Assembly (NCBI RefSeq): GCF_000755245.1
Contig: NZ_BBMP01000022.1
Location: 682,001 to 746,000, forward strand
Direction of reading: 5' to 3'
Length of the DNA: 64,000 nt
DNA from: Halococcus sediminicola
Lineage (GTDB): Archaea > Halobacteriota > Halobacteria > Halobacteriales > Halococcaceae
Shown: positions 7,255 through 12,855 of the stretch, in pieces
Position numbering within the stretch: position 1 is the first letter of the stretch
Layout: each line of letters opens with the position of its first letter
Notes under the pieces: model-generated
The model's database searches: none
The model's input: the letters and a program-made list of their open reading frames with translations, nothing else
Told to the model about the DNA's origin: nothing
Program-made: the position numbers and the translations under genes

Positions 7255-7716
7255 CTATAGTCCTTCGAGCGAGCGGAGTTTCTGTTCGACCTTCGGCGGG
7301 GCGGCGCTCGGACCGTCGCGCACGCGGTGGTCGGGGATGAGGATCGGGATGGGGTTCTCGTCGAGGGCGGTGCGGACGTGGTCGCGGTCGTCGTCGGCGT
7401 CCGCGTCGAGCGTAGGGATTTGCCGCGTGAGTCGTTCGACGGTGGTCTGTTCGCCGTAGGCGAGTTCTCGAACGGCGTCGAGTACCGCGCGCTGGTCGGT
7501 CGGGACGGTGAGCGCGAGTTCGATGTCGTCGAACTCGTCGGGCGCACCCGCCAGATACTCGAACAGCCTGTCGAGCAGCGGGTGTTCGTGGTCGGCGTCG
7601 GCCGCGAGGCTCGCCGGAAAACTCACCGAGAGTACGCGATCGCCGGCGACGCCGACCTGCACACAGCGGTCGAGGTAGTCGGACTCGCGCGTGTAGATGC
7701 CGGCTGCCTCGCTCAT
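7255..7716 (-). CDS. MGMT/Ogt-type DNA-binding domain protein lacking the catalytic Cys
   Basis: The 153-residue protein has an N-terminal alpha/beta part and a C-terminal winged-helix region like O6-alkylguanine-DNA alkyltransferases ([31 protein letters not shown]). Where active enzymes have P-C-H-R, this one reads P-D129-H-R, so it cannot take an alkyl group onto Cys. Bacterial and yeast alkyltransferase-like proteins replace Cys with Trp and flag damage for repair; an Asp here suggests a related non-enzymatic role, by inference. An alternative start lies three codons upstream (7725). It is divergent from trpC. Confidence 0.85.
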
Positions 7717-7776
7717 GGCACGCATAGCGCCGTGTCGACCTTCAACATTCTGTCCGCGGGCGACGCGTGACGCAAG

Positions 7777-7810
7777 CCTTATGTACAAAACAGTGCTTCG
7801 ATGTACAACA
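7777..7810 (+). promoter_or_regulatory. trpCBA promoter with two TGTACA boxes
   Basis: TGTACA occurs at 7782-7787 and again at 7802-7807, each within ATGTACAA, with start points exactly 20 bp apart. The first overlaps the likely TATA element CTTATGTA and the second covers the predicted transcription start just before the trpC ATG at 7811. TGTACA is the TRP-box consensus bound by the tryptophan repressor TrpY in Methanothermobacter. Confidence 0.6.
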
Positions 7811-8569
7811 ATGAACGCCAGCGAGGAGGTCGCTCCCGCGATCGAGTCGATACTGGCCGCCGCCGACGAGCGCGGCGGTGGCGACCGGCGGTTGTCGGTC
7901 GCCGCACGATCGCTGCCCGCGGCACTCGCAGCGGCCGACGAGGAGAACCGAGTGCCCGTCATCGGCGAGATCAAGCCCACGAGCCCGACGACCGACGGCC
8001 GGCGCGACGACGATCCGGCGGCACTCGCCGAGGCGCTGGTCGACGGCGGTGCGGCGGCACTCTCCGTTCTCACCGAGCCCGACCACTTCGGGGGGTCGCC
8101 CGGCGCTCTCCAGCGAGTGCGCGAGACCGTTTCGGTGCCCGTTCTCCGGAAGGACTTCATCCGTCGTGAGGAACAGCTGGACGTCGTCGAAGCCGACGCC
8201 GTCCTCCTGATCGCACGGTTCGTCGACGACCTCGCGGGGCTCGTCGCGGCGGCGCGCGAGCGTGGGTTCCAGCCGCTCGTCGAGGTCCACACCCGGGACG
8301 AACTCGACGACGCGCTCGCGGCCGGGGCGGAGATCGTGGGCATCAACAACCGCGACCTCGCCCGTCTGGAGGTGAGTCTCTCGACCTTCGAGGAGCTCGC
8401 ACCCCACGCGCCCGAGGACGTGACGCTCGTCGCCGAGAGCGGCATCGCCAGTGAAGAAGACGCTGCACGAATGCGCCGTGCCGGGGCCGATGGGCTGCTC
8501 GTCGGGAGCGCGCTCATGGACGGCGACGTCGAAACGAACACCCGACGACTCGTGGAGGGAGCGAAATGA
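7811..8569 (+). CDS. trpC: Indole-3-glycerol-phosphate synthase TrpC
   Basis: This 252-residue (beta/alpha)8 enzyme closes the indole ring from carboxyphenylaminodeoxyribulose phosphate, the step before tryptophan synthase. Family segments are [13 protein letters not shown] (first catalytic Lys), VPVLRKDFI (second catalytic Lys), [25 protein letters not shown] and [11 protein letters not shown]. An in-frame ATG ten codons upstream (7781) would place the TRP boxes inside the gene; 7811 agrees better with the family N-terminus. Its stop overlaps the trpB start (ATGA at 8566), so the two are translationally coupled. Confidence 0.96.
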
Positions 8570-9810
8570 GCGACACCGACGCGGGCGAGAGACCGGGGAA
8601 ATTCGGCGAGTACGGCGGCCAGTACGTCCCCGAAGCGCTGATGCCGGCGATTGCCGAACTCGACGACGCCTACCGGCGATACGTGCTCGACAACGAGGAC
8701 GGGTTCATGGACGAGTTCCGGGCGCGGCTCCGCGATTTCGGCGGGCGACCGACGCCGCTCCAGCACGCCGAGACGCTGAGTTCGCGATACGGGTTCAACG
8801 TCTATCTCAAGCGCGAGGACCTTCTTCATGGGGGTGCGCACAAGCTGAACAACGCGCTCGGGCAGGTGCTGCTGGCGAAGTACATGGGCAAAGAGCGGAT
8901 CATCGCCGAGACCGGTGCGGGCCAGCACGGGACGGCGACCGCGATGGCCGCTGCCCATCTCGATATGGACTGTGAGGTGTTCATGGGCGAGCGCGACATC
9001 AACCGCCAGCGCCCGAACGTCTTCCGCATGCGGCTGAACGGCGCAGAGCTCAACCCGGTGAGCACGGGCAGCGGTACGCTGAAGGAGGCCACCAACGAGG
9101 CGATGCGCGAGTGGGCGACCACGGTCGAGGACACCCACTACGTCATCGGCTCGGTCGTCGGGCCGCACCCGTTCCCGACGATGGTCCGGGATTTTCAGTC
9201 CGTCATCGGTACAGAAGCCAGACGGCAGATGGAGGAGAAACTGGGGTGCCTCCCGGATAGCGTCGTCGCGTGTGCCGGCGGTGGCTCGAACACGATGGGC
9301 GCGTTCGACGCGTTCGTCGACGACGATGCCGTCTCGCTCGTCGCCGTCGAGGCCGGCGGCAGCGGGCTCGAAATCGACGAACAGGGAGGGATCGCGCCCA
9401 ACTCGGCGTCGCTGTCGATCGGCGAGGAGGGCGTCCTCCACGGCGCGCGCACGAAACTCCTCCAGAACTCGGACGGCCAGATCCTCGAATCCCATAGCGT
9501 GAGCGCGGGTCTCGACTACGCGGGGGTCGGCCCGGAGCTCGCCGATCTCGTCGACGACGATCGTGTGCGAGCGGTCTCGGTCGACGACGACGCCGCGCTC
9601 TCCGCGTTCCATCGCCTCTCGCGGACCGAGGGGATCATCCCGGCGCTCGAAACTTCCCACGCGCTCGCGTATCTCGAAGACGGCGCGGAACTCGGCGAGC
9701 ACGTCGTAGTCAACGTCTCGGGTCGGGGAGACAAGGATCTGGAGAGCGTCGTCGAGGAGACCGAAAAGCGCGATATCGAAGGCGCACCGTCGATGAGGGT
9801 ATTCGAGTGA
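8566..9810 (+). CDS. trpB: Tryptophan synthase beta chain TrpB
   Basis: This 414-residue PLP enzyme condenses indole with serine. It begins with the TrpB signature [17 protein letters not shown] and carries the PLP lysine in [12 protein letters not shown], the [12 protein letters not shown] loop and the phosphate-binding glycines in [13 protein letters not shown]. The C-terminal SGRGDKDL motif is intact. It has the length of TrpB1 rather than the longer TrpB2, as expected for a partner of TrpA. It overlaps trpC by 4 nt and trpA by 4 nt in the trpCBA operon. Confidence 0.98.
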
Positions 9811-10619
9811 GTTCGATTCGTGCTGCCTTCGAGGACACCGACGCGGCGCTCGTCCCCTACATCACCGCCGGCGATCCCGACCCCGATGCGACCGCCGCAC
9901 AGGTGCGCGCGCTCGCCGCGGGCGGTGCCGACGTCATCGAGCTGGGGCTACCCTTCTCGGAGCCGATCGCCGACGGCCCCACCATTCAGAACGCGATCCA
10001 ACGCGCGCTCGACGCCGGCATGACGCCTGATCGGTTCCTCGATCTCGTGAGGGACCTCGACGTGGACGTTCCCCTCGTCTGCATGACCTACTACAACCTC
10101 ATCTACCAGTACGGACGGGAGGGAGGCGTCGAGCCGTTCGTCGAGGCTGCCGCCGGGGCGGGCCTCTCGGGACTCATCGTGCCCGATCTCCCTGTCGAGG
10201 AGAGCGACGCGCTGAAATCGGCCTGCGATTTCCACGATATCGATCTGGTCTTCATCGTCGCGCCGACGACACGCGGCGAGCGTCTGGAGCGTGTACTGGA
10301 ACGGGTCTCGGGCTTTGTCTATGTGCAGGCTCGCCTCGGGACGACCGGCGCGCGCACGGACGTGAGCGACCAGACCCACGACTCGCTCGCGCGGCTCGCG
10401 GAAGCCGACGTTCCCCGGGCAGTAGGATTCGGCGTCTCGGAGGGCGAACACGCCCGCGAGATCGTCGCCGCCGGCGCGGAGGGCGTCGTCGCCGGCAGCG
10501 TCTTCGTGGACATCATCGCCGAGAAAGGAGCCGACGCCGCCGACGAGTTGGAGACAAAGGCACGCGAACTCAAGGAGGGCGCGCTGGCGGGAATCGCGCC
10601 GCGACCGGAACGAACATAA
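9807..10619 (+). CDS. trpA: Tryptophan synthase alpha chain TrpA
   Basis: The 270-residue TIM-barrel subunit cleaves indole-3-glycerol phosphate to indole and channels it to TrpB. Catalytic Glu and Asp occur in [20 protein letters not shown], followed by [23 protein letters not shown], the loop GTTGARTDV and the phosphate site [10 protein letters not shown] and VVAGSVFVD. It starts with GTG at 9807, overlapping the trpB stop, which is a common coupling arrangement. Downstream genes make the shikimate precursor, so the block serves tryptophan and aromatic synthesis. Confidence 0.97.
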
Positions 10620-10642
10620 CCGCCGTGGCACCGACTGTCAGT

Positions 10643-11437
10643 ATGCACACCGGTACGCACGCACGACTCGGACGCATCGGAACCGACGGCCGCTACCTCG
10701 TGGTGCCGATGGACCACGGCCTCACCCTCGGCGCAGTGGCTGGACTCGCGGACATCGAATCCACCATTGACGCGGTGACACGCGGCGGCGCGGATTCGGT
10801 GCTCACACAGAAGGGCATCGCGCCCCGAGTCCATCCCAACTCGAACGAGGCGGGCTACATCGTTCATCTCAACGGCTCGACGGTCGGCGGCCCCGACACG
10901 AACGACAAACGAATCACGGGAACTGTGGAGGCGGCTATCCGCGCGGGTGCGGACGCCGTCTCGCTCCATCTCAACGTCGGCAGCGAGAGCGAACCGAAGC
11001 AGATCGAGGACCTCGCGCGCATCACCGAGCGCGCGACCGATTTCGGCATCCCCGTGCTGGCGATGACCTACGCGCGTGGGCCGGGCGTCGACGGGGCCGA
11101 CCCGGAGCGCCTCGCCCACGCGGCCAGACTCGGCGAGGAACTCGGTGCCGACCTCATCAAGACCGGCTACTCGGGCGACGGCGAGAGTTTCAAACACGTG
11201 GTCGAGTCCACTCGTCTTCCTGTCCTCATCGCGGGCGGCAAACCCGAGAGCGACCGCGCCTCGCTCGAGGCTGTTCGCGGCGCGATGGACGCCGGCGCGG
11301 CGGGCGTCTCGATGGGCCGAACCGTCTTCCAGCACGAAAATCCCGAGGCGATGACGCGCGCAGTCTCCGGTGTGGTGCACGACGACCTCCCCGTTGAGGA
11401 AGCCCTCGACAGGGCCGGACTGGCCGTCGAAGCCTAG
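10643..11437 (+). CDS. 2-amino-3,7-dideoxy-D-threo-hept-6-ulosonate (ADH) synthase
   Basis: The 264-residue class I aldolase-like protein resembles the archaeal enzyme (MJ0400 type) that joins 6-deoxy-5-ketofructose phosphate and aspartate semialdehyde in the archaeal route to dehydroquinate. Visible are VVPMDHGLTLG near the N-terminus, the probable Schiff-base lysine in ADLIKTGYSGD, and the phosphate-binding segments VLIAGGKPES and GVSMGRTVFQ. Being 23 nt after trpA and upstream of dehydroquinate synthase II, it probably belongs to the same aromatic gene set. Fructose-bisphosphate aldolase is a possible alternative name. Confidence 0.92.
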   Translation: MHTGTHARLGRIGTDGRYLVVPMDHGLTLGAVAGLADIESTIDAVTRGGADSVLTQKGIAPRVHPNSNEAGYIVHLNGSTVGGPDTNDKRITGTVEAAIRAGADAVSLHLNVGSESEPKQIEDLARITERATDFGIPVLAMTYARGPGVDGADPERLAHAARLGEELGADLIKTGYSGDGESFKHVVESTRLPVLIAGGKPESDRASLEAVRGAMDAGAAGVSMGRTVFQHENPEAMTRAVSGVVHDDLPVEEALDRAGLAVEA

Positions 11438-11664: not shown

Positions 11665-12855
11665 ATGACACGCTCGGTCTGGCTCAAAGCCGACGATTCG
11701 GTAGGAGATTGGGAGAGTAGGAAACGACGCATCACCGCCGGACTGGAGGCGGGTGTCGATTGGGTGCTCTGTGACGAGAGCGACGTTGCGCGTGTGCGCG
11801 AACTCGGCGCGGTGTCGGTCGCGGCCTTCGCCGACGACGGCGTGGACGTCATCGGAGACATCGAATCCGGCGAGCGGGACGCGACCATCGTCGGCAAGGA
11901 CAGCGAGGGCGACGGGACCGTGGACCTCCCCGCCGACTTCTCCGGCTCGGCGGACCTCTCGGCGCTCAGACGGGGCGAGGCGGCGGGTGCCTACGTGCGT
12001 ATCTTCAACGACGACTTCGAACAGTTCGCCGAGGAGGCCGCCGCAGCGGCCGACTACACCATCGTCGTCGGCGAGGACTGGACCATCATTCCTCTGGAGA
12101 ATCTCATCGCGCGCATCGGCGACGAGACCGAACTGATCGCGGGCGTCGAGAGCGCGGCGGAGGCCCGGACGGCTTTCGAGACGCTCGAAGCCGGTGCCGA
12201 CGGCGTGTTGCTCGACAGCGACGACCCCGACGAGATCCGGGAGACGGTCGAAATTCGGGACGACGCCGACCGCGAGAAACTCGACCTCCAGTGGGCCGAA
12301 ATCACCGACATCGAGCAGGTCGGCTCCGCCGATAGAGTCTGTGTCGATACGGGGTCGCTGCTCGACGACGACGAGGGAATGCTCGTCGGCTCGATGTCGC
12401 GCGGACTCTTCTTCGTCCACGCCGAGACGGCCGAATCGCCGTACGTCGCCTCCCGACCGTTCAGAGTGAACGCGGGGGCCGTCCACGCCTACGTCCGCAC
12501 GCCCGGTGGCGGGACGAAGTATCTCTCTGAACTCGGCAGCGGCGACGAAGTCCAAGTCGTGAACACCGACGGCCGGGCGCGCGAGGCGCTCGTCGGCCGG
12601 GCGAAGATCGAGCGCCGGCCGATGTTCCGCGTCGAGGCCGTCGTCGGCAGCGACATCGACGATGCCGAGGGCGACGACGTCGCCGGCGACCGTATCGAGA
12701 CGCTGCTCCAAAACGCAGAGACCATCAAAGTCGCCACCCGCGAGGGACCGCGGGCGGTGACTGACCTCGAAGCCGGCGACGAGGTGCGCGTCCACTACGA
12801 GGCGACGGCCAGACACTTCGGCGAGGCGGTCGACGAGCGCATCGTCGAGAAATAG
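11665..12855 (+). CDS. 3-dehydroquinate synthase type II (archaeal)
   Basis: The 396-residue protein matches the archaeal NAD-dependent enzyme (MJ1249 type) that oxidatively deaminates and cyclises ADH to 3-dehydroquinate. It opens with MTRSVWLKADDSVGDWESRK and contains the family segments DWTIIPLENLIA, VGSMSRGLFFVHAET, SRPFRVNAGAVHAYV and GGGTKYLSELGSGDEV. It is acidic throughout, as usual for haloarchaea. It acts directly after the ADH synthase encoded upstream, replacing the canonical DAHP synthase and AroB reactions. Confidence 0.95.
   Translation: MTRSVWLKADDSVGDWESRKRRITAGLEAGVDWVLCDESDVARVRELGAVSVAAFADDGVDVIGDIESGERDATIVGKDSEGDGTVDLPADFSGSADLSALRRGEAAGAYVRIFNDDFEQFAEEAAAAADYTIVVGEDWTIIPLENLIARIGDETELIAGVESAAEARTAFETLEAGADGVLLDSDDPDEIRETVEIRDDADREKLDLQWAEITDIEQVGSADRVCVDTGSLLDDDEGMLVGSMSRGLFFVHAETAESPYVASRPFRVNAGAVHAYVRTPGGGTKYLSELGSGDEVQVVNTDGRAREALVGRAKIERRPMFRVEAVVGSDIDDAEGDDVAGDRIETLLQNAETIKVATREGPRAVTDLEAGDEVRVHYEATARHFGEAVDERIVEK

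Follow-up and report, generated by a model that had tools for sequence, protein, structure and literature searches.

The promoter of the trpCBA operon in Halococcus sediminicola carries an array of TGTACA-type units in exact 10-bp phase, which is conserved across haloarchaea and has a counterpart at the unlinked trpDFEG operon. This element is probably the trpCBA operator, read by a hisB-linked TrpY-family protein that brings about tryptophan-dependent repression of both trp operons. We infer the TrpY-family protein as reader, tryptophan as ligand and repression as effect from sequence comparisons, a structure model and published systems.

The element lies in a window of 64,000 nucleotides (C22:682001-746000), the whole stretch of DNA that was analyzed. 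An earlier, sequence-only reading had described two identical TGTACA boxes 20 bp apart. Direct reading of positions 7779-7813, TTATGTACAAAACAGTGCTTCGATGTACAACAATG, confirmed this: ATGTACAA occurs at 7781-7788 and again at 7801-7808, with a start-to-start distance of exactly 20 bp, and TGTACA-N14-TGTACA occupies 7782-7807, 5' of trpCBA. The boxes were also correctly placed on the TATA element and at the predicted transcription start, respectively, as the first overlaps the TATA-like TTATGTAC (7779-7786, + strand) and the second lies just before the trpC ATG. As for an isolated pair, the 20-bp distance holds, but the repeat unit is 10 bp, and a degenerate unit, AGTGCT, had been overlooked at 7792-7797; the trpC element is therefore an array of three units in a phase of exactly 10 bp. 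Putative operator unit 1 (TGTACA, 7782-7787, +) has T, G and C at +0, +1 and +4 that are invariant across 61 haloarchaeal trpC promoters. Putative unit 2 (7792-7797, +), 10 bp after unit 1, is conserved as GTnC (G 97%, T 90% and C 100% in 58 distinct sequences), and putative unit 3 (TGTACA, 7802-7807, +) starts 20 bp after unit 1 and ends 3 bases before the ATG at 7811. In the TATA-like element, for which a role in TBP binding is likely, TTATGT is 91 to 100% conserved per column. The conserved stretch CGCAAGCC (7771-7778, +) occupies a BRE-like position just 5' of it, with mostly 1 to 2 bits in columns -1 to 6, and presumably serves TFB. The trpC start that follows the TATA-like element is probably leaderless, with a predicted transcription start.

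Five genes on the + strand follow the element. These include trpC (indole-3-glycerol phosphate synthase, 7811-8569; Pfam IGPS, 6.8e-67), trpB (tryptophan synthase beta, 8566-9810; Pfam PALP, 8.1e-39, and gene order) and trpA (tryptophan synthase alpha, 9807-10619; Pfam Trp_syntA, 9.5e-87). The fourth encodes a DeoC/LacD-family aldolase for the first step of the aromatic pathway (10625-11437; Pfam DeoC, 1.4e-50) and has the same position as OE1472F in Halobacterium salinarum, so that the first four genes match the arrangement of the trpCBA-OE1472F operon of that species (PMC4162585). The gene for 3-dehydroquinate synthase II, the second step of the pathway (11665-12855; Pfam DHQS, 1.7e-131), follows after a 228-bp gap and may have its own promoter. 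Divergent from trpC, at 7255-7716 on the - strand, is a gene with an O6-methylguanine methyltransferase DNA-binding-type domain (26.8 bits, slightly below the Pfam cut-off), and a similar sequence is likewise divergent from trpC in many relatives. The nearest named genomes by TrpC are those of Halococcus morrhuae and H. thailandensis.

Conservation was assessed in gap-free alignments of promoters at trpC loci from named genomes and 60 relatives. Among the 61 trpC rows are the window's own promoter and a few genomes that the two collections share; 58 of the sequences are distinct, and the set takes in four AT-rich, reduced genomes of 0.9 to 1.1 Mb. CGCAAG-CTTATGTACA-nATnnGTnCnTTAnTGTACAnnnATG was found in all 61 promoters. 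Most positions of the element carry 1 to 2 bits in this alignment, while columns farther 5' carry only 0.04 to 0.5 bits. Both TGTACA boxes were matched at five or more of six positions in 57/61 promoters, and C was present at +4 of all three units in 58/61.

The unlinked trpDFEG operon has a promoter with a four-unit array in the same 10-bp phase in 49 of 50 genomes (consensus CTTAAGtcga TGTACgnATT TGTaCATTAC AAgACGAAnn cGTACATtgg, then ATG), and C occupies +4 of all four units in 48/49; G031 was the sole trpD promoter of the 50 in which no array was found. Paired TGTACA boxes had been expected before the trp genes of close relatives, and their presence throughout the trpC set and in nearly all trpD promoters bears this out. 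As the trpD array begins 3' of a separate TATA box (CTTAAG), the array is not merely a TATA variant. In the H. sediminicola genome, the trpC sequence model was convincing only at trpC and the trpD model only at trpD, which indicates that the signal is trp specific. Allowing two mismatches in the exact pair gave 29 matches genome-wide versus 20 in the control, which is noise except for two matches that are the trpD array. No further regulon member was assigned, as the weak extra matches to the trpD model in relatives were located inside coding sequences or, in one genome at a time, 5' of dissimilar genes.

The regulator gene was said to be absent from the window, and indeed a candidate lies elsewhere on the same contig. 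The HTH-ACT protein divergent from trpE in a Methanobacteriaceae locus (L084), used as query, identified exactly one homologue in the Halococcus genome, at G000:C22:414523-415023, directly after hisB. This protein scored 232 bits against NCBIfam TrpY_fam (NF053754; cut-off, 180) over residues 2 to 164 of 167, is collinear with the methanobacterial protein, and has DRR at the recognition helix. Its AlphaFold model (pLDDT, 92.7) comprises an N-terminal HTH and a C-terminal beta-alpha-beta-beta-alpha-beta ACT domain; the Pfam ACT match (2.4e-4) was below the gathering cut-off, and Foldseek against the PDB returned Lrp/AsnC-like and ACT matches. Pfam PF04645, also tried as TrpY, proved to be the wrong family.

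A helix-turn-helix gene co-occurring with the boxes had been proposed, and each of the 41 high-quality haloarchaeal genomes gave one strong match to a TrpY-family protein. However, the family was found in 145 of 147 genomes across the phylum, and such near-universal co-occurrence says little on its own. One genome without TrpY (G076) had no trpA-E in the 72% of the genome that was read, which is suggestive of the joint loss of regulator and pathway. Two Methanobacteriaceae (L084 and L059) have a single member of the family, encoded divergently from trpE, and TGTATA-N4-TGTACA, in 10-bp phase, lies between the two genes. The protein tree separates haloarchaea and the two Methanobacteriaceae into a clade each, which fits mostly vertical descent, apart from family f24, which nests among f21.

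In most haloarchaeal genomes, the trpY-family gene lies after hisB, often with hisA, and before a YigZ/IMPACT-family gene; hisB was nearby in 38 of 54 loci (L138:914-2609, L192-L273). In H. sediminicola, the hisB stop is immediately followed by the start of the trpY gene. The trpC and trpD models had no convincing match at this trpY gene and no exact TGTACA occurs in its locus (L138), so there is no sign of autoregulation.

The earlier prediction that the operon is under a TrpY-comparable repressor is thus supported by conserved arrays at two operons together with one TrpY-family protein per genome. Repeats one helical turn apart expose the same face of the DNA, which would suit a row of cooperating subunits, and the TrpY-family protein would bind TGTACA units every 10 bp, with its subunits aligned along that face. 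When tryptophan is plentiful, the ACT domain would be occupied and the protein would fill the array. At trpC, the array spans the TATA element to the start site, while at trpDFEG, it runs from just 3' of the TATA box across the predicted start; in both cases, TBP/TFB loading and/or initiation would be blocked, and the positions of the arrays fit repression of this kind. When tryptophan is scarce, the protein would be released and both operons transcribed. In H. salinarum, trpCBA and trpDFEG were induced in the absence of aromatic amino acids (PMC4162585).

The sequence-only reading considered that control of a haloarchaeal trp operon by a TrpY-comparable repressor would be a useful extension. 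The array is not confined to haloarchaea, as many methanogen families have it too. TrpE could be placed in 29 of the 30 genomes from outside the haloarchaea, and 25 loci of ~13 kb, together with the two Methanobacteriaceae loci, gave 27 trp loci. In 23 of these, the best three-unit array in 10-bp phase anywhere in the locus lay no more than ~430 bp upstream of the first trp-cluster gene, versus 1.04 expected. Three-unit arrays with 20-bp spacing did so in 20 loci and those with any other spacing tested (7 to 25 bp) in at most 8; for two-unit arrays, the counts were 18.3 (10 bp), 17 (20 bp) and at most 9 (other spacings). Control palindromes at 10 bp also scored high (TATATA, 15.7/27; GTATAC, 13/27) because trp leaders are AT rich, and the argument therefore rests on the spacing control rather than on the raw count.

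Individual loci varied. The array match was weak in G080. G078 was counted as an exception, yet its array is present at 7261 of L348, the TrpE start having been misplaced (cut short). The two trp clusters of G175 (trpBA and trpD-E-G-F) lie on opposite strands, and a TGTACA-like 10-bp array accompanies each of them (L331:2830 and L331:8276). In several methanogen families, a second trpB-like gene heads the trp operon, and the array lies before that gene (L338:8705-8761, L341:4533, L344:8856, L346:4463). In f24, a TrpY-family protein that nests with the f21 clade is divergent from trpC (L283:1418-2093); there is no TGTACA array between them, and the site may have changed.

Several observations count against TrpY as the reader. 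First, two genomes of f21 have the protein and no array at trp in the 27-locus test, so that family membership is no guarantee of function; f21 is probably Thermococcaceae by inference, as no Tar-type site was found at its trp promoters. Second, the haloarchaeal gene is located beside hisB rather than trp and lacks an array of its own. Third, G105 has the protein, and no array was found at its trpE; its TrpY (L349:905-1462) is intact apart from an in-frame repeat (EGSAEGSAKGSAKG...) inserted ahead of the HTH. There is about an even chance that a single ancient switch, in which a single-copy TrpY binds a helically phased TGTACA array as a multi-subunit row, operates across most of the phylum (haloarchaea, many methanogen families and Methanobacteriaceae) and that its loss or change of use is limited to a few lineages, the probable Thermococcaceae among them.

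The array could also be a genuine trp operator with a different reader, for example the Lrp-family protein LrpA2 (Trh1) or a TrmB-like protein, which we regard as unlikely. The overall fold of the TrpY model resembles Lrp/AsnC, and Lrp proteins, too, recognize sites in helical phase. LrpA2, the strongest published rival, was upregulated 14.9-fold in H. salinarum without aromatic amino acids (PMC4162585), and the trp operons of Haloarcula hispanica were TrmB dependent without a TrmB site, for which the TrmB homologue HAH_0923 was suggested (PMC10817205). However, TGTACA is the TrpY box, and the same 10-bp boxes accompany trpY in Methanobacteriaceae, which have no other family member. Furthermore, no LrpA2-type gene was linked to the array in this analysis, and the evidence gathered here ties neither LrpA2 nor the TrmB homologue to TGTACA boxes. 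A TrpY-family reader remains the preferred interpretation.

It is far less probable that the boxes are core-promoter sequence alone, a TATA element plus initiator conserved for the basal machinery without a regulator of their own, despite the overlap of the first trpC box with the TATA element and of the second with the predicted start. The separate TATA box 5' of the trpD array, the exact 10-bp phase in many families and the lack of a convincing match at any other promoter of the genome, every one of which has a TATA element, argue against this. Chance repetition of a palindromic hexamer can be dismissed, since, although TGTACA occurs seven times in the window versus 2.2 expected, the window (0 in 100 shuffles) and the full genome of 3.76 Mb (~0.004 expected genome-wide from shuffled hexamer density) each contain the exact TGTACA-N14-TGTACA pair just once, and conservation of the element in all 61 trpC promoters refutes chance.

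TrpY and the TRP box are already known, and the family has been named by NCBI; the reach of the box, its phased architecture and the named haloarchaeal candidate are new. No description of haloarchaeal boxes or of a phased array was found in the open-access literature. Recent work found haloarchaeal trp operons to be under regulation with no recognized site and pointed to a need for further factors (PMC10817205); the tests in another study did not extend to the TrpY branch of haloarchaea (PMC6737238). For haloarchaeal trp regulation, a site, a second operon predicted to be coregulated and one candidate gene can now be named, all of which are testable in the genetically tractable Haloferax volcanii. 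The results suggest an old origin and a broad distribution of the TRP-box switch among archaea, with an array in 10-bp phase as its unit. This is relevant to the way in which small regulators in archaea silence TBP/TFB promoters.

The consensus of the TRP box is TGTACA. The TrpY/TRP-box system of Methanothermobacter thermautotrophicus, in which trpEGCFBAD is repressed, resembles that proposed here in its TGTACA-type boxes over a trp promoter and in its HTH-ACT TrpY-family protein, one per genome, and 10-bp boxes also occur at the two Methanobacteriaceae loci. In contrast, Halococcus has two unlinked trp operons with three- and four-unit arrays. In Methanothermobacter, the TRP boxes to which TrpY binds are situated between its own gene and trpE (PMC6737238). 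Divergence of trpY from trpE is a feature of that system and not of the family, as the gene is hisB linked in most haloarchaea; likewise, autoregulation via boxes at trpY is a Methanothermobacter feature, and the Halococcus gene has no array.

Tar (TK0271) of Thermococcus kodakarensis is also an archaeal regulator of aromatic amino acid genes, but it is an activator and an unrelated protein, with the palindrome TGGACA-N8-TGTCCA as its site (PMC6737238). This site was not found in the trpC and trpD promoter sets of haloarchaea, where the elements are TGTACA direct repeats at 10 bp. The TrpY homologue of T. kodakarensis (TkTrpY) did not bind its trp promoter (PMC6737238). Lrp/AsnC regulators share an HTH and an ACT/RAM-like ligand domain with the candidate according to Foldseek, whereas the Halococcus protein is above the TrpY family cut-off and its TM-scores to whole Lrp chains are low (~0.3). 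Helically phased sites are common among Lrp/AsnC regulators. Bacterial TrpR offers a further likeness in its tryptophan-responsive operator at trp promoters, but it has a different fold, no ACT domain and another operator.
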